From: Bartonella grahamii ATCC 700132
Lineage (GTDB): Bacteria; Pseudomonadota; Alphaproteobacteria; Rhizobiales; Rhizobiaceae
Direction: 5' to 3'
Length of the DNA stretch: 64,000 nt
NCBI RefSeq assembly: GCF_000518085.1
Contig: NZ_JACX01000011.1
Span: 1 to 64,000, forward strand
Part shown: piece after piece, positions 18,107 through 62,181 of the stretch
Numbering within the stretch: the stretch's first letter is position 1
How the letters are laid out: every line of letters starts with the position of its first letter
Made by a program: the position numbers and the translations under genes
The notes under the pieces: generated by a model
Database searches by the model: none
Told to the model about the DNA's origin: nothing
What the model saw: only the letters and a program-made list of their open reading frames with translations

Positions 18107-18880
18107 TTATTGACCACGCAGTTTTTTGGCATAATCTGCATATCGCGCTGCAAATTCTTCGTAAGCTCGTTGTTCGGCAGCTTTGTATTCCGCTTGTTGA
18201 ATCATCGCGGCGGCTTGCATTTGGAGTATTTTTGTTTGGAGGTCTGCTTGTACCGCTGCTAATTTTGCTTGAATGCCTTGAATTTTACCCGCATCTTTAG
18301 TGCTTCCAAGTTCATCGAGAAGCTTGGTAATGTTTTTTTGTGTTTCACTGGCTTCTTCGTAGACGTCTTGGCCTTTTGCTGCTTGTCCTACTACGCGCTG
18401 TTCGGCTTTTTTCACTTCCTGTGCGTAAAAAGCATCTACTGCTTCTTTTGATCCTGCTCCGCCTGAGGGCTCTTTGTATTTAAGTTCTTCTTGCCATTTT
18501 TGCGTGTTTTTGCTGCCGCCACCGCCGCCGCCGCCACCGCCGCCGCTGCCCATCGATTGTTGAAAGTGGTTAAAGTCAGAAGGGAGGGCGCCACTGCTCC
18601 CTTGCTTGTTAAACATGTCTTTCAATCCCGAGATGTCAGGCTTGACATTCAAGGAGTTATATAATTGTTTCGCTTGATCGAGTTGGCTCTTTAATTGCTC
18701 AAGCTGTTGTGCACCTTGTTGAATTTGTTCTTGCAATTTGCCAAGCTGTTGTGTGCCTTGCTGGACTTGTTTCATTATTTGTCCAACAGCCGCGGGATCA
18801 TATACCATGATAGCAAAGGCATTTGTTTGAAAGCCAAATGAAGCTGCACAAAGGGCTGTTGCCAATAAAAGTTTTTTCAT
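18107..18880 (-). CDS. virB5: T4SS minor pilin VirB5
   Basis: VirB5 caps the T-pilus and contributes to recipient contact. The ATG at 18880 overlaps the virB4 stop as ATGA, and the 257-aa product has a clear signal peptide (MKKLLLATALCAASFGFQTN, cleavage near AFA). The mature protein is largely helical and Gln-rich (QQGTQQLGKLQEQIQQGAQQ), typical of VirB5/TrwJ. A run of ten glycines at about residues 113-122 is encoded by GGC/GGT repeats. The C-terminal half is a long coiled coil. It is longer than the 17-kDa VirB5 of the Bartonella VirB/D4 system. Confidence 0.85.
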   Translation of the reverse strand: MKKLLLATALCAASFGFQTNAFAIMVYDPAAVGQIMKQVQQGTQQLGKLQEQIQQGAQQLEQLKSQLDQAKQLYNSLNVKPDISGLKDMFNKQGSSGALPSDFNHFQQSMGSGGGGGGGGGGSKNTQKWQEELKYKEPSGGAGSKEAVDAFYAQEVKKAEQRVVGQAAKGQDVYEEASETQKNITKLLDELGSTKDAGKIQGIQAKLAAVQADLQTKILQMQAAAMIQQAEYKAAEQRAYEEFAARYADYAKKLRGQ

Positions 18881-21237
18881 TGTTTTGATCTTTCTTGAAA
18901 AATAGGAAGCCATTTTTCTGGAGATTGTCCAACTTCATCCATAATGGTCTCTAGGAGTTCAATATTCTTGGTGGTGCCGCTTAAAATGGCTATTTCATCA
19001 TCAAAGCCGCGTAAATTCAGTTCTGCTACAACAGAACTTTGCCCTTGTTTGATGAGAAAACGCCGTGACTCACGGCTTAATTCTGATTGTATCAGGTTAA
19101 ATTCTCTGTCCGATAATTTAAAACCTTCTACATAATCCCCATGATTGCCCTTTTGATTGGGAAAATAAATCTGTGTGGGGCATTGCTCTATAATGGTGTG
19201 AGCAATGGTCGAATTGATCGCATCTTTGGGAGATTGTGTTGCAAACAACATCAAACCATTTTGTTTACGAATAGTTTTCAGCCTGTCTTGCGCAAAGGCT
19301 TTAAAGGAATCATCCTCTAAGGCTTTCCAAAACTCATCAATGACAATGATAATACGACGTCCATCAATCAGAGACAAAATTCTATGAAAAAGATACATCA
19401 TTAAAGGTGGACGAATTTCATCATTGTCTAAAAAATCCGTCATGTCATAACCAATAAATTTTGCATCAATGCCAATGTCGTCATCAGGATTGTCAAAAAC
19501 CCACCCTAAGGCATTGCCTTTACACCATCTTTCTAAACGACCCGATATCCCCTCCCTATGCGTGGTGTCAAAAAACATTTGTAAGGCAGAGATCGTCCGT
19601 TGTTCTTTTGGCAACAAGGCAAGCTGCTCAACAGCCGCCGTAATGTCTTGTCTTTCTGATTCACTGATCTTTTGATCTTCAGAAGAAACAAGCTTTATAA
19701 TCCATTGGCGTAAAAAAACTCTATCTGCTGGATTGTTATAGTCTAAGCCTTTTAGCGGTGCTATGCCTGTCGGTTTACCATTCTTCAAGGGCATATAAGT
19801 GCCGCCACCCGCTCTGACAAAAAGTTCTGCACCCCGATCTTTGTCAAAAAAGACCATATTGGGATCATGCTTTTGAAGTTGTGCTAAAAGAAAATTGACA
19901 ATAACCGTTTTCCCAGAACCAGAGGGACCACAAACAAACGTATTGCCTAAATCACCAAAGTGAAAGTTAAAATAAAACGGTGAACCAGCAGAGGTTTTCA
20001 TCAAGGCTACCGCTGGTCCCCACACATTGCCATCTATTTTTCCAACCGGAAAAGAATGAAAAGGAGAAAGCGCTGCATAATTGCGGCTGGTTATCGCTCC
20101 AGAGCGGGTGCGATAAGCATAATTGCCAGGCAATTGTGCCCACCAAGCCGCCGCTAACCCTAAATCTTCCCGCGCAATCACAGCCCCACCATCTGTAAGA
20201 CGAGAACGCGCTTTGGCAAGATTATCCGCTAACTCTTGCGGCGTATCAGCAAAAACTGCCAATGATAAATGATGTTCCCCTAAAACAAAACGATTGGATT
20301 CAAGATCATCAAGCGCATCATCCAGCTCCATAATTTGTGAGCCCGCACGGTCTCCTGCATTGACCATTTGGTTTTGTTTGCGCCCCATAATCTGCTTGGC
20401 AATGTTTTTGCTCTTGAAAACAAAAGATTGGGTGAAAATAAACTCAAAGGGAAGCGTGAGCAAACCATCCGCCATGCCTACCCTGGTTTTTGCTGGATAT
20501 TCTTTCCAACCAAACATGCCCGCAAACCGCTGTCCTGCCTCATAGCGTATTTCTATGATCTCTTTCCCAAAAATGAGACGGTCTGAATAAACGGTCGACG
20601 CTATCGTCCCCCATGTGAGGGGGATACGTTCACGACGACCTCCCACCAATTGGTGGATAAACTCACTTTGCTGCGAATAAATATTGCCTTCATGTTCATA
20701 AAGGCTCAGTCTTTTTGCACCATAACGCTCTAAATTTTGAATAAGATCTGTTGTAATATCTTCAAGCTTGCGAATGGACTCTGCGTCAGCTTCTGTCTTT
20801 TCTTGTTTGGCTTTGCCTAAACGTTTGAAAAACTCCACTAATTTATCCGTTTGATCAACGTGTGGATTCCACAAAATCGAAAGATAAAGATCATTGCGAT
20901 AAAGCTCCTGTGAAACCATCCGCTCACGATATTTATCATCTAATTGCTTGGCAAATGCCGATCTGAAAGTCCCATCCGGATAAACAGTTTCACGCTTTCT
21001 GATAATATGGCTATAAAGCGCTATCCGTTCATCCGCTATGTTTTTAAACAGATTATTGAGCTGTTCGTGAAGCACATTCAGATCAATAATATCCGCTGTC
21101 TCAAAGTTAATCCCTTCAAGTTTAATAACGGACATGAGAGCGCGTGAATCCAGCGCAATGATGTGTTTATTGACATGGCGCACGTAAGGAATGATCGCCT
21201 CTGGCTGCTTTTCACGTTTGCGCTCTGTTGTGTTCAT
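18877..21237 (-). CDS. virB4: T4SS ATPase VirB4
   Basis: VirB4 is the large ATPase that powers pilus biogenesis and substrate transfer at the inner membrane. The 786-aa product is full length. The N-terminal domain ends near residue 420. The Walker A motif GPSGSGKT lies near residue 440, Walker B (RRIIIVIDEFWKAL) near 635 and the conserved FATQSPKDAINS follows. The start shares bases with the virB3 stop (TAATG), and the stop overlaps virB5, so virB3-virB4-virB5 are tightly coupled. Confidence 0.97.
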   Translation of the reverse strand: MNTTERKREKQPEAIIPYVRHVNKHIIALDSRALMSVIKLEGINFETADIIDLNVLHEQLNNLFKNIADERIALYSHIIRKRETVYPDGTFRSAFAKQLDDKYRERMVSQELYRNDLYLSILWNPHVDQTDKLVEFFKRLGKAKQEKTEADAESIRKLEDITTDLIQNLERYGAKRLSLYEHEGNIYSQQSEFIHQLVGGRRERIPLTWGTIASTVYSDRLIFGKEIIEIRYEAGQRFAGMFGWKEYPAKTRVGMADGLLTLPFEFIFTQSFVFKSKNIAKQIMGRKQNQMVNAGDRAGSQIMELDDALDDLESNRFVLGEHHLSLAVFADTPQELADNLAKARSRLTDGGAVIAREDLGLAAAWWAQLPGNYAYRTRSGAITSRNYAALSPFHSFPVGKIDGNVWGPAVALMKTSAGSPFYFNFHFGDLGNTFVCGPSGSGKTVIVNFLLAQLQKHDPNMVFFDKDRGAELFVRAGGGTYMPLKNGKPTGIAPLKGLDYNNPADRVFLRQWIIKLVSSEDQKISESERQDITAAVEQLALLPKEQRTISALQMFFDTTHREGISGRLERWCKGNALGWVFDNPDDDIGIDAKFIGYDMTDFLDNDEIRPPLMMYLFHRILSLIDGRRIIIVIDEFWKALEDDSFKAFAQDRLKTIRKQNGLMLFATQSPKDAINSTIAHTIIEQCPTQIYFPNQKGNHGDYVEGFKLSDREFNLIQSELSRESRRFLIKQGQSSVVAELNLRGFDDEIAILSGTTKNIELLETIMDEVGQSPEKWLPIFQERSKQ

Positions 21238-46858: not shown

Positions 46859-47018
46859 TTTCCACCTCTAGTCGTGTTGTTGATGACTTTAGCGTTTTTT
46901 CTATTTGCTTTTGTTGTTCAATCTTTTTTCCAAGAGTAAAAACTTTTGCTAAAGCGATAAAAAAAGCGGTTAGAGTCGCTCCTGTTATCATCAGATTTTT
47001 TTTCATCCACCACATCAT
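46782..47018 (-). CDS. Inner-membrane spanin-like protein (Rz-like)
   Basis: From ATG 47018, which overlaps the lysozyme stop as ATGA, the 78-aa product has an N-terminal membrane helix (MITGATLTAFFIALAKVF) and a long charged helix (KKIEQQKQIEKTLKSS, LEVENEINQK). This layout suits an i-spanin. The longer ORF beginning at 47099 runs inside the lysozyme gene and is not used. Confidence 0.6.
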   Translation of the reverse strand: MMWWMKKNLMITGATLTAFFIALAKVFTLGKKIEQQKQIEKTLKSSTTRLEVENEINQKSDPDVRAALTRWLRDKNNK

Positions 47019-47677
47019 AAGCGTTGCTCCCGAAACCGTTTTGCCACAAAGAAGATGCCAGCACAGGCGGCTAAAATCATAATGGCTGCCAATGCCCATT
47101 GGATGGGACCATTGCCTGCCAATAAGCCTCCAAGTCCAGAAAAAGAACCAATAATCGGTGTAAGTGCTTCTGCTTTGAAAAATCCCATTGGTTCTTGCGT
47201 TTCTACGGTTTGGTAGTTAGGAGAAACATAAGCACCTTTTGCCCATAGTCCTGCTTCGGCTGCACGACGGTGCACTAAACCGTGAAGACGTTTTCCTCCT
47301 GCTTTGGTCCACTTTTGTAATTCAGCAGGGACGGCTTCATATTCGCCGTTATTGAGTTTTTTGAGCAGGGTCGAATTACAAAAAGCCGAAGCTCCTATAT
47401 TATAGCAAAACGATACGAGCGCGGCGAATTGTTCATCCGTTAAGGAAACCGTCACATTTGTTTCAACGGTATTTTCAAATTGTCTTAAATCTTGAGAAAG
47501 AACTTCTTCTGCTTGTTTTTCAGTAATGATCATGCCCTTGTGAACGAACGGTTCGCCAGCAGCGCTGGTATGTCCATAGCCAATTGTCCATACCCCGATG
47601 GCATCTTTATAGGCGTTCAAACGCAATCCTTCCCATTGTTTAATGAGTGCAAGCCCTGCTGATGATATTTTTCTCAT
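47015..47677 (-). CDS. Phage-type lysozyme (GH24 endolysin) with C-terminal membrane helix
   Basis: The 220-aa product cleaves peptidoglycan. Residues 1-150 form a GH24 lysozyme: the catalytic Glu is in LIKQWEGLRLNAYKD, followed by GVWTIGYGHTSAAGEP and the CYNIG region. ATG 47677 has GGAG six bases upstream, better than the in-frame ATGs at 47689 and 47704. The end carries one membrane helix (about 185-205) and a basic tail (KRFREQRL), so it is membrane-bound. With the spanin-like genes behind it, it forms a lysis cassette, most likely of a Bartonella prophage or gene-transfer agent. Confidence 0.9.
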   Translation of the reverse strand: MRKISSAGLALIKQWEGLRLNAYKDAIGVWTIGYGHTSAAGEPFVHKGMIITEKQAEEVLSQDLRQFENTVETNVTVSLTDEQFAALVSFCYNIGASAFCNSTLLKKLNNGEYEAVPAELQKWTKAGGKRLHGLVHRRAAEAGLWAKGAYVSPNYQTVETQEPMGFFKAEALTPIIGSFSGLGGLLAGNGPIQWALAAIMILAACAGIFFVAKRFREQRL

Positions 47678-47789
47678 TTGCTTCTCCATAAAATAAAGCC
47701 TCACGTTAACGTGAGGCTGGTCGACATATTAAAAATGAAATTTTTTACTCCTCAAAAACAGAAGAGACGTGAAACTTTAATAAAATCAA

Positions 47790-48595: not shown

Positions 48596-49525
48596 TTACA
48601 TCATCAAAGATTTGTATTCAGTGAGCCTTTTTTGGTGGGAGGAAACGGAAACAGTTTTTCCTTCTGTTGTTCTTAAGTTTTTTTCAAATCTCTCTCTCAG
48701 AGTTTCACCTTTTTTGTTTACTGTTTCATGTTCAGCATCCGGATTGGTTTTTAAATATTGTTCTAGACGTTTTCTTCCTTGCGCATGCTTGTATAAACTG
48801 ATGGGAAGATAGGAATCTAACTTTTCAGCAGATAAAGATGAATTGGGTTCACATAATACACCCTTAACATTATCTTTGTGCAATCTTGCTAATTTATCAG
48901 ATTCAAGATGAAGCTTTTTGGCGAGGCTTAAGCTAAACATCCCACATTCAGAAGAGCTTCGCTGAATATCCATTTCTGCCGTGGTAAAAGAATAAGGAGG
49001 CAGTTGAAGACATTGAAGGGTTTGATTTATTTTTATCCCTAGTTTGCAAGCAGTGATATTCTGAAATGTTGTAGGTTCAAGCATAATCAAAGAGATTTTG
49101 TCATCAACTTTTTGATAATCAAGGACTGCAAAGTGGATTTTACTTCCCGAATTTACTATAAATCGAGCAGATTTTGCGTCGCTCTCAACCACTTCCTTTA
49201 GTGCGTGCGAAAACTCTTCTGCTGTAAGAGCCAATTTGAGATTCATTTCTGGATATTTGCTGTTTGCTTTTTCTACGAGAGCCGGCATCAATCTAATATC
49301 TATATTTTCATAATAAGAGTTAATCCAACGGCCGGTGACGAGATCATCCTCTAAGTCTGTAATAATAGCTTTCAACTTTTCCTGACTCAAGGTGCTCTCT
49401 TCTTTTTGAGGAGCGTTGAGTTGTTCTAAACGGGCAATAAGGCTTTCTAAGGATTCATTTTCGATGTTACTTTCTGCTATTTGTGAGGCATGAGCGGCAG
49501 TATCTTTTGAATCTTGTGGCTTCAT
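48596..49525 (-). CDS. YopJ-family acetyltransferase homologue, copy A
   Basis: The 309-aa product carries the YopJ/Ulp1-like catalytic core: His131 in SKIHFAVLDYQ, Glu150 in SLIMLEPTTF and Cys194 in SSECGMFSLSLAKK. The spacings (19 and 44 residues) equal those of Yersinia YopJ (109, 128, 172). The family acetylates Ser/Thr/Lys of host kinases, activated by inositol hexakisphosphate. There is no signal peptide and no BID domain. CGGAGG before ATG sets the start. It is about 20 residues longer than YopJ at the C-terminus. Bartonella lacks the T3SS that exports family members elsewhere, so the delivery route is unknown. Confidence 0.88.
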   Translation of the reverse strand: MKPQDSKDTAAHASQIAESNIENESLESLIARLEQLNAPQKEESTLSQEKLKAIITDLEDDLVTGRWINSYYENIDIRLMPALVEKANSKYPEMNLKLALTAEEFSHALKEVVESDAKSARFIVNSGSKIHFAVLDYQKVDDKISLIMLEPTTFQNITACKLGIKINQTLQCLQLPPYSFTTAEMDIQRSSSECGMFSLSLAKKLHLESDKLARLHKDNVKGVLCEPNSSLSAEKLDSYLPISLYKHAQGRKRLEQYLKTNPDAEHETVNKKGETLRERFEKNLRTTEGKTVSVSSHQKRLTEYKSLMM

Positions 49526-49899: not shown

Positions 49900-50880
49900 T
49901 TACATCATCAGAGATTTGTATTCCGTCGCTCTTTTTCTGTGCTGTGAAACAGAAACAGTTTTTGTCTCTGTTACACTTAAGCTTCTTTCAAACCTCTCGG
50001 TTAGAGTTTCTCCTTTTTTGTTTACTTTTTCATGTGCTGCTTCTGGATTGGCTTTTAGATATTCCCTAAGACGTCTTCTTCCTTGCACGTGTTTGTATAA
50101 ACGAGCTGGAAGATATGGATCTAACTTTTCAGCAGGTAAAGGCGTATCTGGTTCACATAACATGCCTTTAATATTATCTTTGTGCAGTCTTTTTAATTTA
50201 TCAGCTTCGAGATAAAGCTTTTTGGCAAGGCTTAAGCTGAACATCCCACATTCAGAGGAACTGCGTTGAATATCCATTTCTGCCATGGCAAAATGAATGT
50301 TAGGCAATTGGTGATCTTCAATGGATTGTCGCGTTCTTAATGCAAGTAAGGCGGGGAGCGTGTCACGCAGTGAGGTAGGTTCTAAAAAGATCAAAGATGT
50401 TTTGTCTTCTATAGTTTGATGATCAACGACCGCAAAATGGATTCCCCTATCATGCGCATTAACAATCAGCCTGGAAGATTTTATGCCGTTTTCGAGCGTT
50501 TCTTTAAGCGCAAGGGCAAAGCCGTCAGGGGGCGTCGCAAGTTTAAGATTCATCTCTGGATATTTACGATTTGCTTGATCTACCAAGGCTGGCATCATAT
50601 AAAGATCTAAAATATCATAATAATTTTTTATCCAACTTCCATCGGCATTATGCTGTTCTAAACCAGCAACAATATCTTTTAATTCCGCACGATTAAAAGG
50701 AGTATTTCTAATTTTTTCGATGTTGAGCCGTTCTAAATGTGAAGCAAGATTGTCTAGTGATGCATTTGCACGCGCTCCTTCGGGTGTCTTCGCAGCTTTT
50801 TGTGCGCTTGCTTCTTCAGGTGCGCTTGTACTTTCGGGTATTTGTGAGGAATGAGGGGGGGAAGAATCTTGTGGCTTCAT
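49900..50880 (-). CDS. YopJ-family acetyltransferase homologue, copy B
   Basis: The 326-aa product, starting at ATG 50880 after TATGGAGGC, is a diverged paralogue of the neighbour. The triad is conserved: His148 in GIHFAVVDHQ, Glu167 in SLIFLEPTSL and Cys211 in SSECGMFSLS, with the same 19 and 44 spacing. The N-terminus is different, with an extra Ala/Pro/Glu-rich region (about residues 16-40), and the segment between Glu and Cys has changed (TLPALLALRTRQSIEDHQLP). The C-terminal 80 residues are close to copy A. Both copies look intact. Confidence 0.88.
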   Translation of the reverse strand: MKPQDSSPPHSSQIPESTSAPEEASAQKAAKTPEGARANASLDNLASHLERLNIEKIRNTPFNRAELKDIVAGLEQHNADGSWIKNYYDILDLYMMPALVDQANRKYPEMNLKLATPPDGFALALKETLENGIKSSRLIVNAHDRGIHFAVVDHQTIEDKTSLIFLEPTSLRDTLPALLALRTRQSIEDHQLPNIHFAMAEMDIQRSSSECGMFSLSLAKKLYLEADKLKRLHKDNIKGMLCEPDTPLPAEKLDPYLPARLYKHVQGRRRLREYLKANPEAAHEKVNKKGETLTERFERSLSVTETKTVSVSQHRKRATEYKSLMM

Positions 50881-50975
50881 GATATTAGCCTCCATATTAA
50901 TAATCAATGGACGACATTATTTTCTTCAACTTTGGCTAAACAATGTTTTGAAAGAGAGCTTTTGCATTTTGAAAG

Positions 50976-52371: not shown

Positions 52372-52953
52372 TTAGCTAATGCTCTTTTTGCTAGAACAGT
52401 CAAAATGTTTATAAAGGGCATCAAGAATAATACGCAACGAACCAACAAGATTAGGCAGCGGTTGATCTTCTATAACAAGATATTGTAATGCCGCATGAAA
52501 GTTGTGTTGACGATGTAAATATTGCGCTTCTTTAATCGCTTCTTGCATATCTTCATAGTGTTCCGTCGCTCTTTGAACCCATTGCTTTTTTGTTTTCTCA
52601 TCTGATGCGCTGTGCGTAAAACCATCATAATAGCCGTTTGGTAAGCCTTTTGCACATAAATAGTCGTTTCTGATTTGCAAGTATCGTTGCGCCGTATCAT
52701 ATTGCTCTTTACTGATGCCTGATGAATCCCCTTTATAGCCAAGCAAACAAAGACGCCCAATATAGGTTCCGACAAGCGGATTTTTCGCTTCTTCGAGGCT
52801 TAAACCAAAGTGTTTTGCACGCATTTCAATCGCAGATTGAAGCGCAGATTCGCTGGGGCTTTGGGCACGTGAAATACGGCCATTGGGCTCTCTGAGTTTG
52901 CCTGTTATTCTCGGTCTACCGCGTTTTTTACGTATTTTCATGAACTTAACCAT
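52372..52953 (-). CDS. Phage or GTA packaging-type protein (terminase small subunit-like)
   Basis: The 193-aa soluble product starts with a basic AT-hook-like segment (KKRGRPRITGKLREPNGR) and continues SALQSAIEMRAKHFGLSLEE and GTYIGRLCLLGYKGDSSGIS, then KEQYDTAQRYLQIRNDYLCA. This pattern occurs in Rhizobiales prophages and gene-transfer agents just before the terminase large subunit, where it is thought to act as a small subunit. Here it is alone: no terminase, portal or capsid gene follows within the window. The family assignment is from memory of the pattern. Confidence 0.6.
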   Translation of the reverse strand: MVKFMKIRKKRGRPRITGKLREPNGRISRAQSPSESALQSAIEMRAKHFGLSLEEAKNPLVGTYIGRLCLLGYKGDSSGISKEQYDTAQRYLQIRNDYLCAKGLPNGYYDGFTHSASDEKTKKQWVQRATEHYEDMQEAIKEAQYLHRQHNFHAALQYLVIEDQPLPNLVGSLRIILDALYKHFDCSSKKSIS

Positions 52954-53058: not shown

Positions 53059-53155
53059 AATATGAGCTGTTGCAGATCAAAGGAGAAACGGATACTAAAG
53101 GCGTCTTTCAGCACAAAGAACAGCAACGGGGTGGGGCGAAAAAATCATCTTTAAG

Positions 53156-53320
53156 GTGTTTCTTGTCATTTTTATCTTACCCCTACCAGTCTTATTTTTC
53201 GCCCCTATCATGCTTATTTTTTCATGGATAGCGGATTATTTGCTCTCTAAAGATTTCTCAACTGCTCTAGAACAGTTGAAAAGAAACTTTTGTCACATGC
53301 GAATAAATAAACAAGAATGA
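53156..53320 (+). pseudogene. Remnant of a module B membrane protein
   Basis: From GTG 53156 a 54-codon frame encodes one hydrophobic helix (FLVIFILPLPVLFFAPIMLI) followed by a charged helix (STALEQLKRNFCHMRINKQE), the same order as the C-terminal half of the module B proteins in the array at 55169-62181. The first helix of the module is missing. It shows that the array once reached further left. Confidence 0.45.
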
Positions 53321-55168: not shown

Positions 55169-55687
55169 ATGATCGAAGATAAATCACAACAGCAATCTGC
55201 CCATGAGGGAGATAAGGCTTTTGTATCGCAGCCAGTGTTGGATCAATCGGCAACTTTCAAAAAATTGACGGCTCTCTCAACAAGCGATTATATCATCATT
55301 TGTTGTTTGGCTATCCTCTTGTTGGTGCTTTTTGTCGCAACTGTTTATATGGATCCTCTGGATTTTTTTCACATTATGTCCAAAGAACAGTTCCAAGCAC
55401 TGGGACAAATGAAACAAGAAAGTTTTCAGGAAATAATTCAGGAGAGCCTTGCACATCCTTTTAAAAATCCTATCATTGAGCATTTGCTTGATGCGGGGTG
55501 GAATAGTGTTTGGGCTTTTTTATGTTTCTTACCGCAAATGATTTTTGGCGTTCTTTTTGGTTTTTGTCCGCTCTTTGTTGTCTTTAACATCGTATTTAAA
55601 CGGGATGTGAAGGAAATGATGAAGCTGTGGGAAACCTTGCCAGAGCAGCAACAGCTAGACAACCAATCTCTTAACAGAAGACTATAG
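55169..55687 (+). CDS. Array membrane protein 1 (module B)
   Basis: The 172-aa product has a polar N-terminus, two membrane helices (about residues 45-63, YIIICCLAILLLVLFVA, and 115-142, AFLCFLPQMIFGVLFGFCPL) and a charged end (KRDVKEMMKLWETLPEQQQL). The motif ALSTSDY before helix 1 fits the FSxKDY signature shared by the array. The loop between helices is longer than in other members. GTGGGGGAG is upstream of the ATG. The family is not recognised. Confidence 0.7.
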   Translation: MIEDKSQQQSAHEGDKAFVSQPVLDQSATFKKLTALSTSDYIIICCLAILLLVLFVATVYMDPLDFFHIMSKEQFQALGQMKQESFQEIIQESLAHPFKNPIIEHLLDAGWNSVWAFLCFLPQMIFGVLFGFCPLFVVFNIVFKRDVKEMMKLWETLPEQQQLDNQSLNRRL

Positions 55688-55696
55688 GAGGGGAAA

Positions 55697-56248
55697 GTGA
55701 CCGCTTCTTTAATCATTGGAATGTTGATTGCCGTAGGGACGGCAATTTTTATTTGTTCTGCAATTTTTATGGTATTCCTTTCTACCATGGTGACAATCGT
55801 TGCACTTTATTATTCTTTAATAAAACGGACAATCTTGTTATTGGCGACGCAGCGAAAATTAAAAAAGGGTGCAGCGCAGAATTTGAGGCATAATCAGGCA
55901 GAGGGTAGAGGACAGAATACAGTTCTTGCAACACAGTTCAGTGCCTTTTCTTTTCAAGAATCTTTGCTTCTCTCAAAAAAAGATTGTTTTATGATCTTTT
56001 TTATCGCTTTCGTTATGGTTGCACTTTGTACAGGTGTTGTCGTTTTTTTAGCGTTTCTTCCAAAATCTGCAATTTTTTTGCACAATTACGTGCCTATGAT
56101 AGTGCTTCACATTATTGATTTTGTCATGCGACTGCTGTTTTGGGTCTGGACATGTATTGTTGTTTCTTTACCTGTCATTTTAATTCTCCATAGTTTCCTT
56201 CAGTATGGCGTGAAAAAAACAGCAAAGAGATTAGAAACATTTGTTTGA
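55697..56248 (+). CDS. Array membrane protein 2 (modules A+B)
   Basis: A GTG start is preceded by AGGAGGGGAAA. The 183-aa product joins module A (membrane helix at about 8-38, then YYSLIKRTILLLATQRKLKK) to module B (QESLLLSKKDCFMIFFIAF, helices at about 98-118 and 132-160, tail YGVKKTAKRLETF). The junction is an Asn/Gln-rich linker. It starts 9 bases after protein 1. Confidence 0.7.
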   Translation: MTASLIIGMLIAVGTAIFICSAIFMVFLSTMVTIVALYYSLIKRTILLLATQRKLKKGAAQNLRHNQAEGRGQNTVLATQFSAFSFQESLLLSKKDCFMIFFIAFVMVALCTGVVVFLAFLPKSAIFLHNYVPMIVLHIIDFVMRLLFWVWTCIVVSLPVILILHSFLQYGVKKTAKRLETFV

Positions 56249-56303
56249 AGAGAATAAAAATGATAATTTCACATCAATACGATAGGGAAAAAAAGGGAGC
56301 ATT

Positions 56304-56861
56304 ATGATGCAGCATTTGGCTTTTTTAGGGTTCGTTATCATTGCCATTTTAATGGTTATGGTCGTTGTTAGGTTTCCTTACCTGTTGATCAAACATATCA
56401 GGTTATCTTTTAAACTCGCTCAAGACTTGAAAAAGAGTACGACGCAACAAAAGCAAGCTGTACAACAATTGCGCAATGATCGGGGAGAAATGAAAAGACA
56501 CAATCTCGTATTTAAGACCCTTGATGCGAAAATGCGTTTTCTTAACGTCAAAGAAGCTCTGCCCTTTTCTTCAAAAGAATGTAAAATAATCTTTTTTATC
56601 CTTATTCTCTTTTCTGTTTTGCAATCTGCTTGCTCTATCGCAAATTTTGTATGGTGGAAAAATGATAGCGTTGCCTTTATTATGCAGCTGTTGAGCCTTA
56701 TATGGTTAGGGGTTCTTCTCTTTTCTCCGATCATTGGGATCATGTGCATGCAGTTAACGAGAAAATTGAACAAAATGCTTCAACAATTGGAAGAAGCGAT
56801 ACCACAACGCGATCAGGCAATGCGTATGCAGAATGTGGAAGGGGGACAAAATGACGAGTAG
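56304..56861 (+). CDS. Array membrane protein 3 (modules A+B)
   Basis: A 185-aa protein. Module A: helix at about 6-28 and a long Lys/Gln-rich helix (KLAQDLKKSTTQQKQAVQQL). Module B: KEALPFSSKECKIIFFILIL, second helix at about 135-155 and tail TRKLNKMLQQLEEAIPQRDQ. The module A lacks the usual YYSxIKRxRL motif but keeps a basic IKHIRLSF at the same place. The stop overlaps the next start. Confidence 0.7.
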   Translation: MMQHLAFLGFVIIAILMVMVVVRFPYLLIKHIRLSFKLAQDLKKSTTQQKQAVQQLRNDRGEMKRHNLVFKTLDAKMRFLNVKEALPFSSKECKIIFFILILFSVLQSACSIANFVWWKNDSVAFIMQLLSLIWLGVLLFSPIIGIMCMQLTRKLNKMLQQLEEAIPQRDQAMRMQNVEGGQNDE

Positions 56862-57048
56862 TCTTATAACATTAATAGCCATTTCTTTTCTGTTCTTTAC
56901 GCTCTTAAGTGTTTTAATATGGGCACCGGTCGTTGTCATTTATTACCTGTTTATCAAGCGTGCGCGGCTTTATTGTCGCGTGAAAAAGGAACTGAAATGC
57001 GTGCTGAATGAACGCGATATCGCCTTAAAACAGATCTCTCAAAAATAA
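56851..57048 (+). CDS. Array membrane protein 4 (module A alone)
   Basis: The 65-aa product is module A by itself: one long hydrophobic helix (about 4-32) followed by YYLFIKRARLYCRVKKELKC and a short end. The ATG lies inside the 3' end of gene 3 after GAAGGGGGACAAA, an 11-base overlap, so it is translationally coupled. Its helix and basic motif closely match the N-terminus of the 386-aa protein at 59773. Confidence 0.65.
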   Translation: MTSSLITLIAISFLFFTLLSVLIWAPVVVIYYLFIKRARLYCRVKKELKCVLNERDIALKQISQK

Positions 57049-57059
57049 AAAGCAGCAGA

Positions 57060-57377
57060 ATGTTTGATAAAAAACAGCTTTCTCTTGTTTGGCAAGACTA
57101 TAAAAAAATATTCTATCTTTCTACAGTCATGGCGACTGCTCCAATAGTTATAACTACTGTCGTTCAGATATGGAGAGAAAGGGACTTTGTTTCTCTTGTC
57201 GTATTCGAGCCGCTGGCATGGATGCTTGCCTGTACTTTTTTATTCTTACCGATTGTTTTTATTATGCGTTTTATCGTGACCCGTCGGTTGAAGAAAATGA
57301 TACGGCAATTAGAAGAAGAGGTTGAGCAGAAAAAAGCTCCAGTTATATTATACGATGTGAGCGAGGGGAAAAAGTGA
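57060..57377 (+). CDS. Array membrane protein 5 (module B alone)
   Basis: The 105-aa product: SLVWQDYKKIFYLSTVM opens helix 1 (about 18-38), helix 2 is at about 53-75, and the tail is VTRRLKKMIRQLEEEVEQKK. The combination of a basic RRLKKxIxQLEE tail after helix 2 is the most constant feature of module B. It follows gene 4 by 11 bases. Confidence 0.65.
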   Translation: MFDKKQLSLVWQDYKKIFYLSTVMATAPIVITTVVQIWRERDFVSLVVFEPLAWMLACTFLFLPIVFIMRFIVTRRLKKMIRQLEEEVEQKKAPVILYDVSEGKK

Positions 57378-57670
57378 AGAGATGCTTTTGTTGCCATAAG
57401 CCTTGCGTTTGACTTGTTCATTAAGGAGCATGGGGTGCGCTTCTCGTTTTATGCTTTTTTATATTTGTGCTGTGTTTTTGAAAAGAATTGAGGCTCTCGC
57501 TTGATTGGGTTTTTTGCTTGCGTGAGGCTTTTGCTTGCGTGGGGCTTTTGTTTGAGCGGTGAGGGGGAAAGCGAAGAGAGGCTTTTATTGTTTTTGGGCT
57601 TCATTTGCTGTTGGTGTTTTCTTAAAGAGAGAAAATCTTGTAACTTATTTTCTTTATCAAGTATAAAAAT

Positions 57671-58790
57671 GTGTCTTACCAAGCGATATTGAGAGCGAAA
57701 AATCTATACTTAAAGCACAAGATATTCTGGTGTTTGGGGAAGAAGAGCCCATTTTTTGCAGGTGGAAAGGCAAAGCGCATAAAGAAGGCGAGCCAAAAGC
57801 TTAAGTTTTTGATCAAAACGTTTTGCTCCATGGAAAGTGCAACAGTGCTTTTAAAGAGCTTGGGTTGGAGGAGAGAAATTGAAAGAAAAGAGGGACATCT
57901 ATTTATTTACGAGACTGTTATTTATTTACGAGACCGTGAAGGACAGTTTCTCTCTCTGGATGAAAAAGGTTTTGTGCAATTTGATTATGGAATTGTGGGA
58001 GATGCTGGTATCCATGCGGCGGCTTGCCAAATAATTAATCCTTATTATTTTAAGGCTTTGCCAGATTTATAACTGGACTTTGAAGCAAAGGGGTGGATTT
58101 TAAGGCAAAGGGATTGAAATTTTTTGAGGAAGAGGTAAGCGTAGGGCGTTTACGTTGTGTACTTGAGTAAGCTTTCGATGAGGCAATGACTGAGGTTGAT
58201 CTGGGACTGAGCTTGATCTTGGCAGTGTGCTTGGCTTTCAAAATGGGGGCACCGCCTTGGAAAAAGGAAATAATGATATCTCTCAAGGGACTTCTTCTTT
58301 GCTGTGCACCCTTGGAGCTTTGGTATTGAGGGCTGATGTTAAAATTTTACACCCTTCTCACAAAAGCTTTATGGAAGGTGAGAGGCTGGGCTTTGAAAAA
58401 AATATCAAAAAAATCTACAGGGGTCGGCTTTGCTGATGGTTCAAATTGTCATAAAGACAAAGCAACTTCGTTACGATTTTCTTTCATCAGTTGGCTTCTT
58501 CTTTGGAAAGAAGCTTATCTCTTGGAAATAAAAAGAGCAGTGATTAGAATTTTAGAGCCTCAGACCCAAATTTGTGCAATAAAAGAAGATATTCTTATGA
58601 ACATTTAATCGACGAGAAAAGAGAAGCCTTAGGACAGCAGGGGATACACTGTGAGTGATAAAAACATGATGTTTGAAGGTAATGGAAAAAAATGCAACTC
58701 TGATATTGTCTTTATAAAAGATGAGGGATACAAGCGCTTGGTATTGATGAACCCTCATTTATTGTGAGGACGAAAGCTTCGGTTCATGAA
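57671..58790 (+). pseudogene. Decayed copy of the module C protein
   Basis: The open part (to 58072) encodes MESATVLLKSLGWRREIERK, YLRDREGQFLSLDEKGFVQF and GIHAAACQIINPYYF, matching the 386-aa protein (MESATALLKSLGWRVEIEGK, GIHAAACQTIDPYNS). After a stop at 58070 homologous pieces continue in changing frames: LRCVLE, HKSFMEG and, near 58680-58740, the final GNGKKCNSDIVFIKDEG. Four or more frame breaks make it inactive. It lacks module A at its start; the ORF opens in unrelated sequence. Confidence 0.8.
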
Positions 58791-58935
58791 AATGGCTTAA
58801 AAATTGAAACAAATGAGGGATAAAAAATGAGGGGCAATGGAAAAAATGCACTATTGGACGAAGAACCACGGTCTTTTTCGCTTGAAGAAGCGTTTTTGAC
58901 ACGCAAAAATTATAAAGTCATCTTTTGCATTGCTT
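58668..58935 (+). repeat. 270-bp direct repeat within the array, left copy
   Basis: GATGTTTGAAGGTAATGG through the first 35 codons of the following gene recurs at 59253-59520 with few differences. The offset is 585 bases. The block joins the tail of a decayed module C gene to the start of a module B gene. Confidence 0.92.
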
Positions 58936-59183
58936 TTATTGTGGCAGCTTTTAAAGTGGCATTTTTTATGTTTTTTAAGTGGGATTTGACAGAGTGGTGG
59001 AATTATATCCTGTTCATTTTAACATTAATATTGGTTTTTATATCAGTGCTTCTTTTTTTGTTCATCCCTGTTGCCTTTGGGGTCCGTATCATTTTCACGG
59101 TTCTGTTGAAAGAAAAAATCAAGCAGTTGGATCAAGAAATTTGGAAGCGAAGAAAAACTGCTGCTCAACAAAACCGCGCGTGA
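58827..59183 (+). CDS. Array membrane protein 6 (module B alone)
   Basis: The 118-aa product begins MRGNGKNALLDEEPRSFSLE, then FLTRKNYKVIFCIAFIV opens helix 1; helix 2 is at about 70-92, and the tail is LLKEKIKQLDQEIWKRRKTA. The start of 35 residues is almost identical to that of protein 7, but both helices differ: shared ends, diverged middle. GAGGGATAAAAA precedes the ATG. Confidence 0.7.
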   Translation: MRGNGKNALLDEEPRSFSLEEAFLTRKNYKVIFCIAFIVAAFKVAFFMFFKWDLTEWWNYILFILTLILVFISVLLFLFIPVAFGVRIIFTVLLKEKIKQLDQEIWKRRKTAAQQNRA

Positions 59184-59252
59184 AGGGCGGGCAGAAAATG
59201 AATACTGGTCTTTATATATTCTCATGCGTTGTAGGAGACCTTCTATTTTTGC

Positions 59253-59520
59253 GATGTTTGAAGGTAATGGAAAAAAATGCAACTCTGATATTGTCTTTAT
59301 AAAAGATGAGGGATACAAGCGTTTGATATTGATGAACCCTCATTCATTGTGAGGACGAAAGCTTTAGTTCATGAAAATGGCTTAAAAATTGAAACAAATG
59401 AGGGATAAAAAATGAGGGGCAATGGAAAAAATGCACTATTGGACGAAGAACCACGGTCTTTTTCGCTTGAAGAAGCGTTTTTGACAAGCAAAAATTATAA
59501 AATCATCTTTTGCATTGCTC
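59253..59520 (+). repeat. 270-bp direct repeat within the array, right copy
   Basis: This is the right copy of 58668-58935. Its first 100 bases are a remnant of a second module C gene end (GNGKKCNSDIVFIKDEG frame), with no other part of that gene left. Confidence 0.92.
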
Positions 59521-59759
59521 TCATTGTGGTAACTTTGAGAATGGTTCTCTTCGTACTAATGTGGCGTGAGTGGAAAGGGAATGTCATAGCAGCTCTCTTT
59601 TCTATTGGGGAGTTTATATTAGATTTAACTTTTGTGCTCATTCCTGTTGCCTTTGTGGTCCGTATCATCTTTACGCGTTTGTTGAAAAAAAAGATCGATA
59701 AGTTGGATCAAGAAATCCGGCAGCGGAGCAAAACCGCTTCTCAACAAAACAGCGCGTGA
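59412..59759 (+). CDS. Array membrane protein 7 (module B alone)
   Basis: The 115-aa product shares its first 35 residues with protein 6 (FSLEEAFLTSKNYKIIFCIA) and has helices at about 35-55 and 66-92. The tail reads TRLLKKKIDKLDQEIRQRSK. It is followed after 13 bases by the full module A-C gene, the same order as the decayed copies upstream. Confidence 0.7.
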   Translation: MRGNGKNALLDEEPRSFSLEEAFLTSKNYKIIFCIALIVVTLRMVLFVLMWREWKGNVIAALFSIGEFILDLTFVLIPVAFVVRIIFTRLLKKKIDKLDQEIRQRSKTASQQNSA

Positions 59760-59772
59760 AGGGGCGGGGAAA

Positions 59773-60933
59773 ATGATAAATATTAAAATGATGGATATTA
59801 TTGTTGTACTCTCGTGGGGTGTGGGCTTGACGCTTTTCACGCTGCTTTCTGCTGTGGTCACGATGTTCATTTGGGCATTGTATTATTCTACTTTCAAGCG
59901 GGTGAGACTGTATTGCCAAGTGACAAAAGAATTCAACCGCGTGCTTGAACAACCTATCGCTTTTGAGCCGTCTAGTGGGGAAATGCCGATGATTAAATCA
60001 TCATCTGAGGAAAAAGAGTTTACAGAGTTTTCTCTGTCTAATGAGGAAATCTTAACGATGGAAAGTGCAACGGCGCTTTTAAAGAGTTTAGGATGGAGGG
60101 TGGAAATTGAAGGAAAAGGGGACCATTTGGCCACCTATTATTTACCAGATCGTGAAGTGCAGTTTCTTTATAATGCTGAGAAGGGGTATCCGCGATTTGA
60201 TTGTGCAATTGCGGTGGTTTCTGGTATCCATGCGGCGGCTTGCCAAACGATAGACCCTTATAATTCTGGAGGCTTGATTGCTCTCGAATTGAGTTTTGAT
60301 GTGAAGGGGTTGGAAATTTTTGAAGAAAAGGTAAGTGCCCAGCATTTACGCTGTGCACTCGAGAAAGCTTTAGAAAAGGCAATGACAGAGGTTGATCTTG
60401 GCAATATGCTTCGCTCTCAATATCGCATTCCTCCTTGGGAAAACAAAATTGTGGTCCCTCAGTTTGCTTCTTATTCGCTGCGCTATCTTGCAGCTCTGGC
60501 TTTGATGGGCGATGTTGAAACCTTAAATGCTTATCACAAAAGCTTTATGGAAGGTGAGAAGCTGGGCTTTGAGACAAGCATCGAAGAGGAGCATCTGGAA
60601 CGCGCGATGATAATCGCTCAAGCGGTAGAAAAGACAAAGCAACCCAGTTACGATTTGCTTAAACAGGCGGCAAAGGATTTTTCCATGGAGGTGGAGAGCT
60701 ATGAATATTTTAGAGCTAAAGATCCCAGTTTGTGTAATAGAAGAAGAGATTCTTATGAAAAATTGATCGAGGAAAAAAGAGAAGAATTAAGGCAACAGGG
60801 ATATTTTGTTTACGAAAAGGACGCGATTTGTGAGGTTGATGGAAAAACCTATCGTCCCGATATTCTTTACATAAAGGATGGGGAGTTAGAATATATGGAT
60901 GTAGAAATTAGGGTTGATGAAAAAATTTATTGA
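59773..60933 (+). CDS. Array protein 8 (modules A+C): membrane-anchored 386-aa protein
   Basis: Module A forms residues 1-55: helix at about 8-36, then YYSTFKRVRLYCQVTKEFNR. The rest is a soluble domain of unknown family, probably cytoplasmic: MESATALLKSLGWRVEIEGK (about 96-115), a strand-rich part with GIHAAACQTIDPY, an acidic helical region (LRCALEKALEKAMTEVDLGN) and a middle helical bundle. The C-terminus (about 330-386) is EEKREELRQQGYFVYEKD, CEVDGKTYRPDILYIKDGEL and ends in EIRVDEKIY. GGGGCGGGGAAA precedes the ATG. It is the only intact C protein among at least three former copies. Confidence 0.75.
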   Translation: MINIKMMDIIVVLSWGVGLTLFTLLSAVVTMFIWALYYSTFKRVRLYCQVTKEFNRVLEQPIAFEPSSGEMPMIKSSSEEKEFTEFSLSNEEILTMESATALLKSLGWRVEIEGKGDHLATYYLPDREVQFLYNAEKGYPRFDCAIAVVSGIHAAACQTIDPYNSGGLIALELSFDVKGLEIFEEKVSAQHLRCALEKALEKAMTEVDLGNMLRSQYRIPPWENKIVVPQFASYSLRYLAALALMGDVETLNAYHKSFMEGEKLGFETSIEEEHLERAMIIAQAVEKTKQPSYDLLKQAAKDFSMEVESYEYFRAKDPSLCNRRRDSYEKLIEEKREELRQQGYFVYEKDAICEVDGKTYRPDILYIKDGELEYMDVEIRVDEKIY

Positions 60934-61021
60934 GAAAAATAAAGAGTTTAGATAAATTAAAAACAGCTTAAACCTAAAAATAATGCGTAAAACACGCGAA
61001 GTGTAAAAGCAGAGGGGAACA

Positions 61022-61396
61022 ATGCAGGAGAAAAAAGCAACATTTGGAGAGTCTTTCTTTTTATTCAAAAAATTTATGGTGTCTTCAGTGGAAAGGCGTA
61101 AAGGGGTAGGGAGTTGTGAAATAATAGGGCGCTGCTTTTTCACTATGTTTTGCACATGTCTTATCATGATGGCTTTAGAAGTTCCTGCGGGTGCAAAATC
61201 TCTGGTAGAGCCGTTGCAATGGACAAGATGGGAAGGATTTGGTTCTCTTATTTTTCTCTTACCGGTGTTGATTTGGTTTTGTCTTCTCACACCACTTCCT
61301 ATTTTGTGGGGACTGCGCTCCGTTAAAGAGCGCAGATTGGAAAAAATAAAGAAAAAATTGAAAGAAGAAATAAAGCAGCAAGAGATTATTCAATGA
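61022..61396 (+). CDS. Array membrane protein 9 (module B-like)
   Basis: The 124-aa product has two helices (about residues 37-58, CFFTMFCTCLIMMALEV, and 77-100, SLIFLLPVLIWFCLL) and a basic tail (VKERRLEKIKKKLKEEIKQQ). The sequence before helix 1 (SSVERRKGVGSCEII) does not keep the SxKDY motif, so it is the most diverged module B. AGAGGGGAACA is upstream. Confidence 0.65.
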   Translation: MQEKKATFGESFFLFKKFMVSSVERRKGVGSCEIIGRCFFTMFCTCLIMMALEVPAGAKSLVEPLQWTRWEGFGSLIFLLPVLIWFCLLTPLPILWGLRSVKERRLEKIKKKLKEEIKQQEIIQ

Positions 61397-61400
61397 GACT

Positions 61401-61958
61401 ATGGCTATGAGGGGAGAGTTTGCGCTTTTTATTTTGTTTCTGCCGTTTGGATGTTTTCTTCTAAATGCAGTTACAGTTTTTGCCATTTTTGTGAATATGA
61501 TTATTGTGGCGCCTTATTATTCTTTAATAAAGTGTTTGAGGCTCTATTACAGAGTGAAAAAACAAAGACGTTTGATGAAAGAATACCCACAGCGTTTTTG
61601 TTTCTTTGAAAAAAGCGGAAAAGAGAAAGAGAGAGTACCGCAAAACTTAGAACTAGAAACACAGATAAGTTCCCATTCGTTAAAAAAATGGCTCGCTTTT
61701 TCACGCAAAGATTATATCCTCCACGCATGCCTCTCTTTCATCATTATGTTTTTCAAAGCTTATGTCTATGTGATTTTCTTTAAAGGGATAGATGAGAGCA
61801 GATTTATGTATATTGTCATTCTCTTGTTTTTCTGGTTTTTTTTATCTGTATCTATTTTTGCAACGATTCCTGTTGTTGTGATCCTTCGTGAAATTTTAAC
61901 CTCTCGGTTGAAAAAGAAAATTCAGCAATTGGAAGAAGTGACTGAAGCAACCCAATAA
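61401..61958 (+). CDS. Array membrane protein 10 (modules A+B)
   Basis: The 185-aa product is another A-B fusion: helix at about 9-40, then PYYSLIKCLRLYYRVKKQRR; a charged linker; then LAFSRKDYILHACLSFIIMF, helix 2 at about 135-165, and LTSRLKKKIQQLEEVTEATQ. It preserves the motifs of both modules best of all members. ATG 61407 is an alternative start. Confidence 0.7.
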   Translation: MAMRGEFALFILFLPFGCFLLNAVTVFAIFVNMIIVAPYYSLIKCLRLYYRVKKQRRLMKEYPQRFCFFEKSGKEKERVPQNLELETQISSHSLKKWLAFSRKDYILHACLSFIIMFFKAYVYVIFFKGIDESRFMYIVILLFFWFFLSVSIFATIPVVVILREILTSRLKKKIQQLEEVTEATQ

Positions 61959-62004
61959 ATCAATTTATACCACACAAATCAATTTATAAAGAGAAGGGGA
62001 TAAA

Positions 62005-62181
62005 ATGCATTACGAAATGGCGGCAGCTTGGACGATGATTTTGATCATTCTGCTGGGGGGTGTTTTTGATTTGTTCTTAACAATACCCATTGTGGCACTG
62101 TATATTTCTTTTATCAAACGTTTGATATCGTATTACAAGGTTACGAAACAATTAAACGCAGCGCTGAAAAAGCGTGTGTAG
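62005..62181 (+). CDS. Array membrane protein 11 (module A alone)
   Basis: The 58-aa product starts at an ATG after AGAAGGGGATAAA and consists of a hydrophobic helix (about 8-34) followed by LYISFIKRLISYYKVTKQLN and a basic end. It is the last gene of the array; the sequence beyond is repeats. Confidence 0.65.
   Translation: MHYEMAAAWTMILIILLGGVFDLFLTIPIVALYISFIKRLISYYKVTKQLNAALKKRV

Follow-up and report, generated by a model that had tools for sequence, protein, structure and literature searches.

The window analysed here is the whole 64,000-nucleotide stretch, bases 1-64000 of contig C10 (which ends at 70804) in a 2.2-Mb Bartonella genome, and our subject is a tandem array of genes built from two membrane modules, A and B, and a third module, C. 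An earlier note, made from the window alone, had described eleven adjacent plus-strand genes at 55169-62181, several overlapping or very close together, as combinations of these modules (A, B, A+B and A+C), and had likened them to variable immunity or exclusion arrays, or to surface systems, with exchangeable parts. We confirm all eleven genes as intact open reading frames (ORFs), their tight packing, the reality of A, B and C as separate modules and the four combinations within the window. However, the array extends past 62181 to about 69.6 kb on the contig, where two B+A genes add a further combination. We show that the array is a row of B-A pairs of old and stable order, and provide evidence that module C, which is the Pfam domain DUF6990, has a credible origin in immunity to contact-dependent growth inhibition (CDI).

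The array opens with a B gene of 172 residues with a long middle (55169-55687; B profile E 2e-19), the B of the first unit. After 9 nucleotides follows an A+B gene with a GTG start (55697-56248), which holds the A of unit 1 and the B of unit 2; the next A+B gene (56304-56861) holds the A of unit 2 and the B of unit 3, and an A gene that overlaps it by 29 nucleotides (56833-57048) completes unit 3. Behind these lie a B gene with no A found directly after it (57060-57377), a decayed copy of C in several frames (about 57644-58764), recognized by fragments consecutive along the query, and two B genes (58827-59183 and 59412-59759) that are 57% identical, the closest B pair in the array. The second of these is paired with an A+C gene of 386 residues starting 13 nucleotides downstream (59773-60933), which consists of module A, a DUF6990 domain (60070-60621; PF22499, residues 100-283) and a truncated tail related to the first half of a CdiA-CT nuclease (60745-60930, with 60745-60909 matched). 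A further B gene (61022-61396), an A+B gene 4 nucleotides behind it (61401-61958) and an A gene (62005-62181) are the last in the window. All of these are on the plus strand and, the decayed copy aside, were assigned from their ORFs and the module profiles or, for DUF6990 and the tail, from domain and profile matches.

Beyond the window, the ORFs and profiles identify the B+A genes at C10:65912 and C10:66805, and further on we find a fragment of B (near 67.9 kb), a complete B gene at C10:68054 and a second intact A+C gene, also of 386 residues, at C10:68456-69616; this part comes after two minus-strand genes, one short-chain dehydrogenase-like and one for an FMN reductase. The locus therefore has three C copies, two intact and one decayed; the earlier note's statement that only one of at least three is intact holds, as to the intact copy, for the window alone. 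Separately, a short plus-strand frame about 1.8 kb before the array (53099-53317) has a weak B match (E 1e-4) and is possibly a B relic. Promoter-like sites (28 against 20.9, s.d. 5.3, in shuffles) and terminator-like sites (12 against 6.6, s.d. 2.6) are in modest excess, which is uninformative on co-transcription.

From the whole contig, 7 A and 11 B copies were each searched with a profile of the remaining copies, a set that leaves out the A portions of the B+A genes. All 18 held-out copies passed, at 19.7-49.8 bits (A) and 26.6-77.5 bits (B). The best of 1000 same-letter shuffles reached no more than 15.5 bits for A and 13.3 bits for B, and two A copies clear their shuffles by a narrow margin (55697, 19.7 against 12.9 bits; 56304, 20.9 against 15.5 bits). 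Because held-out scores exceed those of shuffles and the modules do not find each other (cross-matches of at most 11.4 bits), A and B are two separate families and not generic membrane helices. The earlier note knew of no described function for them, and ten of the eleven window proteins (all but 59412-59759) gave no match over a curated Pfam or NCBIfam cut-off except DUF6990; a PDB sequence search with the A+C alignment returned nothing at E 1. UPF0542, the nearest candidate, for 56304 at 26.2 bits against a cut-off of 27, was rejected, as the match covers 31 residues and was judged a resemblance of helix and basic stretch.

Basic residues are unevenly spread along both modules. Copies with less than 75% profile coverage were dropped from this analysis and from those of order, substitution and mirror similarity below. 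Across 229 A copies, the first 10 residues hold on average 0.16 lysines and arginines and the last 22 hold 6.6; across 276 B copies, the means are 1.8 for the first 14 residues, 4.3 for the last 20 and 0.07 per loop residue. The positive-inside rule is the basis for orienting membrane helices, and this bias, together with a weak structure model, suggests that A is a single membrane helix with its N terminus outside and its C terminus inside, ending in a basic cytoplasmic helix, and that B is a hairpin of two membrane helices with both ends in the cytoplasm. The model in question, an AlphaFold prediction of the A+B protein at 61401 with helices at residues 4-61, 102-127 and 132-184, is of low confidence (mean predicted local distance difference test 68.1, predicted template modelling score (pTM) 0.36) and too weak for a fold match.

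We mapped the three modules across 40 array loci from about 34 genomes by handle, six loci being further pieces of the same genomes, and counted module adjacencies in the loci as they come, related genomes included. Minority-strand modules and A or B matches covering less than 60% of the profile were dropped, and runs were broken at gaps above 1500 bases and at C. The counts were BA 224, AB 153, BB 41 and AA 5, whereas 2000 within-locus shuffles gave means of 80 for AA (minimum 61) and 117 for BB (minimum 97) and never more than 133 for BA. As A and B alternate almost strictly, the repeat unit is a B-A pair. The variety of B, A, A+B and B+A polypeptides arises from one B-A-B-A chain because gene borders fall at different places along it: the A+B genes fuse the A of one pair to the B of the next, and the B+A genes fuse the two partners of one pair. 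In a single small mirror test, B and A were similar in step within units (r=0.53, p=0.024, 9 units), and A with the following B was not (r=-0.29, p=0.88, 8 pairs). Larger repeats also occur, the block B, A+B, A+B, A being present two or three times, with some copies incomplete, in loci L068, L101, L105 and L107.

By reciprocal best hits, we compared the order of the window's copies with that in 15 of the 39 other array loci. There were 0 inversions of A in 15/15 arrays and 0 inversions of B in 13/15, the remaining two showing 3 of 55 pairs (L068) and 3 of 28 pairs (L067) inverted. Mean identity among the copies inside the window's array is about 30% for A and 28% for B. The array copies are old, distinct paralogues and not shuffled cassettes, and the exchange and recombination of modules proposed by the earlier note is rejected on this collinear order across species and the identity of about 30% within an array.

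Ratios of nonsynonymous to synonymous substitution (dN/dS) indicate that the array copies are under weak to moderate constraint. With A or B pairs below 50% identity dropped, pooled values over five genome pairs were 0.32-0.51 for A and 0.43-0.57 for B, and single-gene values scatter, some exceeding 1 on few changes. The A+C genes gave 0.26-0.36 (8 comparisons), and the neighbouring FMN reductase, dehydrogenase-like gene and hypothetical gene at 52372 gave 0.13-0.31 (10 comparisons). The shared ends and diverged middles described earlier are modestly evident in B, where paralogue identity is 0.35 at the N-terminal end, 0.24 in the first membrane helix, 0.21 in the middle, 0.30 in the second helix and 0.40 in the tail, but a dN/dS of 0.35-0.92 for the B middle shows no consistent diversification.

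Module C is identified as DUF6990 (PF22499, E 4.5e-18). This domain is matched in 29/61 Bartonella genomes (28 over the cut-off) and in 3/398 genomes of a phylum sample, the window's own included. In Bartonella it takes two forms: A+C proteins of about 390 residues in the array, and, outside it, longer proteins that hold up to four domains, whose listed open frames span about 600-1070 residues, many being 850-890 (PF22499 matches four times in an 870-residue protein of L017). We searched 20 loci outside the array, two from the window's genome (L017 and L018) and 18 chosen from the DUF6990 match list (L112-L129), with queries for CDI parts at E 1e-4, namely two-partner secretion (TPS), FHA pre-toxin, SUKH, LHH and the C-terminal (CT) nuclease. 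All 20 matched at least one query, that is, they lie within CDI islands, and in 8/20 a CT nuclease or orphan CT stands directly upstream of the DUF6990 gene. As an example, the island at L018 867-6335 combines a truncated fhaB start with a piece of an LHH nuclease and several genes for SUKH proteins; a decayed DUF6990 copy with many stops lies elsewhere in the same genome (L019 8406-9148, minus strand, contig C5).

Outside Bartonella, a DUF6990 gene in one Sinorhizobium meliloti pSymB record shares its first 4 nucleotides with the end of a hemagglutinin-repeat gene, and another, in a second pSymB record, begins 3 nucleotides after a hemagglutinin-repeat ORF of 2315 residues. A 1.8-kb circular Pseudomonas aeruginosa record (L134, NZ_CP137494.1) lists two genes, CdiI_4 and a DUF6990 gene, and there is a partial match in Agrobacterium. 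In a tree of 60 of the 112 DUF6990 domains, made by a quick method that warns of long branches elsewhere, the array C domains form one clade (Shimodaira-Hasegawa-like approximate likelihood ratio test 84) that joins domain 4 of the CDI-island proteins (95). These relatives make a CDI-immunity origin of module C credible. The resemblance to immunity systems suggested by the earlier note is thus supported for C by its relatives in CDI islands and behind hemagglutinin-repeat genes, and fails for a shuffled, variable array.

The A+C proteins also carry what appears to be part of a toxin. Their last 55-60 residues align with the CT nuclease over its first half (hhalign probability 97.9%, E 4.7e-13, in a single comparison, with 39% identity over 62 columns), and a profile of this tail finds CT nuclease frames in L112, L113, L117 and L128. 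The nuclease is putatively of the PD-(D/E)XK type; no toxin family was assigned to it by Pfam. Of 28 A+C sequences compared, 27 have the tail, which is shortened in L063 and lost in L067, a count that leans towards tails as the 28 were picked by a long match to a tail-including profile. As the A+C proteins stop at, or no more than about 20 residues after, the nuclease's second conserved acidic motif, the second half of the nuclease is missing.

The array is widespread within Bartonella, with B in 32/61 and A in 31/61 genomes, and B was found in 1/297 genomes of an order sample, that one being the window's own. Among the matches listed, each genome's hits lie mostly in one region; draft contig breaks split some arrays, and genome G028 carries additional B-A pairs on two more contigs. 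At the far border, a minus-strand gene of 125 residues (C10:70117-70494; L016 8118-8495) occurs in exactly the same 32/61 genomes as B, with internal stops in many of them; neither Pfam (E 0.001) nor NCBIfam (E 0.1) has a match for it. The upstream border gene (52372-52953, minus strand, 193 residues), likewise without a Pfam or NCBIfam match, belongs to a multi-copy Bartonella family found in 51/61 genomes with up to 15 matches per genome. This gene is present in 27/40 array loci and the far border gene in 30/40, the loci being cut at different points, and the weakest upstream hits (37-40% identity, L099 and L104) may be paralogues. Genome G057 keeps the upstream border gene, a YopJ gene, the endolysin and a far-side gene, and nothing in it matches A, B, C or the tail at E 10. 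Shared ancestry accounts for much of the distribution of the array and its border genes.

Other genes upstream of the array, all on the minus strand, include two of the YopJ acetyltransferase family (48596-49525 and 49900-50907), with homologues in 17/40 array loci, and an endolysin (47015-47704) over the cut-off of the NCBIfam BgtA model for the Bartonella gene transfer agent (GTA; NF058676), with a homologue in 13/40. A VirB4 ATPase of a type IV secretion system is encoded about 34 kb from the array (18877-21237).

We tentatively favour the explanation that the array encodes B-A membrane pairs, some of which bear a membrane-tethered CDI-immunity-like domain, and that its role is protective. 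Each unit would supply a B protein and then its partner A, and the two would form a hetero-oligomer in the inner membrane, a complex suggested by the gene fusions and the small mirror test. At certain positions A would carry a cytoplasmic cargo, consisting of the DUF6990 domain and the first half of a CDI nuclease. The A+C protein could thereby hold a toxin-binding domain, as immunity protein or decoy, at the inner face of the membrane where a contact-delivered nuclease emerges, and may bind the toxin and protect the cell. An extended form of this proposal is possible but doubtful: the B-A pairs would together be a membrane-anchored immunity machine, an inner-membrane assembly in which cargo members hold the captured CDI immunity domain and the dead toxin half at the site of toxin entry, and the other pairs guard against other contact-delivered agents.

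Several observations weigh against a protective role linked to CDI. No array locus in the CDI-part search had a TPS, FHA pre-toxin, SUKH, LHH or CT-nuclease match, which answers in the negative, for fhaB and CDI genes, the earlier note's question whether the array always has such a neighbour (autotransporter genes were not searched for). Most B-A units carry no C, and immunity by C therefore cannot explain the B-A pairs; moreover, 4/32 array genomes have no Pfam DUF6990 match, of which two show C fragments with our own profile. Modules A and B have a higher pooled dN/dS (0.32-0.57) than neighbouring genes (0.13-0.31). The genes upstream of DUF6990 in S. meliloti have no TPS or toxin domain by Pfam or NCBIfam, the ORFs listed near DUF6990 in two same-class genomes look unlike hemagglutinin genes on inspection alone, and in Fuscovulum the domain sits among transposases with no CDI neighbours visible. 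The domain tree gives no direction for the movement of DUF6990, the Bartonella CT nuclease had no match on plasmids, and the sole structure model is weak. In favour of the role, the dN/dS of the A+C genes is 0.26-0.36, and 17/18 genomes with a match to PT-VENN carry the array, but 15/32 array genomes have no such match and the co-occurrence is confounded by shared ancestry; the pattern fits an orphan defence kept after toxin loss and, equally, a function unrelated to CDI.

Such a function is the strongest of the alternatives, though on balance an unlikely one: an inner-membrane complex of B-A pairs that serves some physiological task of its own in the envelope, transport or sensing, which captured DUF6990 for binding and not for immunity. 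It would account for the many pairs that lack C and for genomes G043 and G051, in which Pfam matches no DUF6990 and no C fragment is seen, and it agrees with the fixed order, the pooled dN/dS below 1 and the border genes shared by 27/40 and 30/40 loci. However, B is not found in 29/61 and A in 30/61 Bartonella genomes, so such a complex is not core, and a toxin-derived tail kept beside an immunity-like domain would be left unexplained.

We consider it improbable that the array shields the cell from injected DNA, with small proteins blocking entry in phage superinfection exclusion or in self-protection against GTA particles. Small hairpin membrane proteins could, by analogy, suit such a task, and the BgtA endolysin lies in the window with a homologue in 13/40 array loci; yet this gene and other flank genes remain in the array-less G057. 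A PADLOC scan of 9/11 window proteins gave two weak matches, of the B protein 58827 to PDC-M67B (E 2.3e-4) and of 56304 to RT (E 0.048). Against this, an A+B protein had no match in 50,697 phage records, the A+C alignment had none in viral contigs (where B alone was not searched), and PHROGs gave nothing better than E 0.006 for nine proteins. An A+B protein had no plasmid match either.

There is a similarly small chance that the array is a duplicated gene family in decay with little function. C fragments and broken frames are common, A and B show a raised dN/dS that exceeds 1 in some single genes, and in G057 the flank genes are present but the array is not; yet many copies are open and collinear between species, the pooled dN/dS is below 1 and that of A+C is 0.26-0.36. 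A shuffled variable array of immunity, exclusion or surface genes, for which the block duplications in L068, L101, L105 and L107 could speak, is largely refuted by the collinear positional orthologues, the identity of about 30% within the array and the absence of a consistent diversifying signal, and is very improbable.

If the array of B-A pairs does protect, contact killing would be linked to a large and so far unexplained part of Bartonella genomes. Our analysis describes a two-part Bartonella membrane family whose B-A repeat unit is masked by varying gene borders, and proposes a testable function, CDI immunity, for DUF6990, a Pfam family of unknown function. It also offers an example of an immunity-like domain that appears to be held at the membrane along with a fragment of a likely toxin.

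A B. grahamii genomic island named BgGI 3 "Membrane proteins", of 23 kb and 14 genes and described as specific to the rodent-associated lineage (PMC2697382), may be this array; the accessible part of that account describes no modules and no function. CDI genes on B. henselae islands are mentioned in PMC4927057, as far as its accessible text goes. Apart from the possible case of BgGI 3, the array is absent from the accessible portions of the literature on Bartonella CDI, fhaB/fhaC, membrane proteins and islands (including PMC3610622, PMC2847970 and PMC9662315), and our search found no paper mentioning DUF6990.

Among known systems, the CdiI immunity genes are the closest to module C. The DUF6990 relatives in CDI islands and in S. 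meliloti sit where CdiI genes do, immediately behind CdiA/FhaB-type genes at their toxin end, a position shared neither by those in the two same-class genomes and Fuscovulum nor by the array A+C genes. The array copies differ in being fused to a membrane module, in lacking a toxin gene across the loci read and in carrying a piece of toxin. Polyimmunity proteins and loci, described in PMC3482391 without mention of Bartonella in its accessible text, provide a second comparison: the CDI-island DUF6990 proteins likewise have up to four tandem domains, their immunity nature being presumed, and an array of toxin-less paralogues is similar to a polyimmunity locus. However, only C has an immunity-type relative, whereas A and B are membrane modules without one that is known. 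Finally, in the recombinase-associated (rAID) orphan-immunity arrays of Bacteroidales, as the accessible part of PMC12247911 presents them, orphan immunity genes are likewise arrayed away from toxin genes. Those arrays are associated with a recombinase; the Bartonella array keeps its order.

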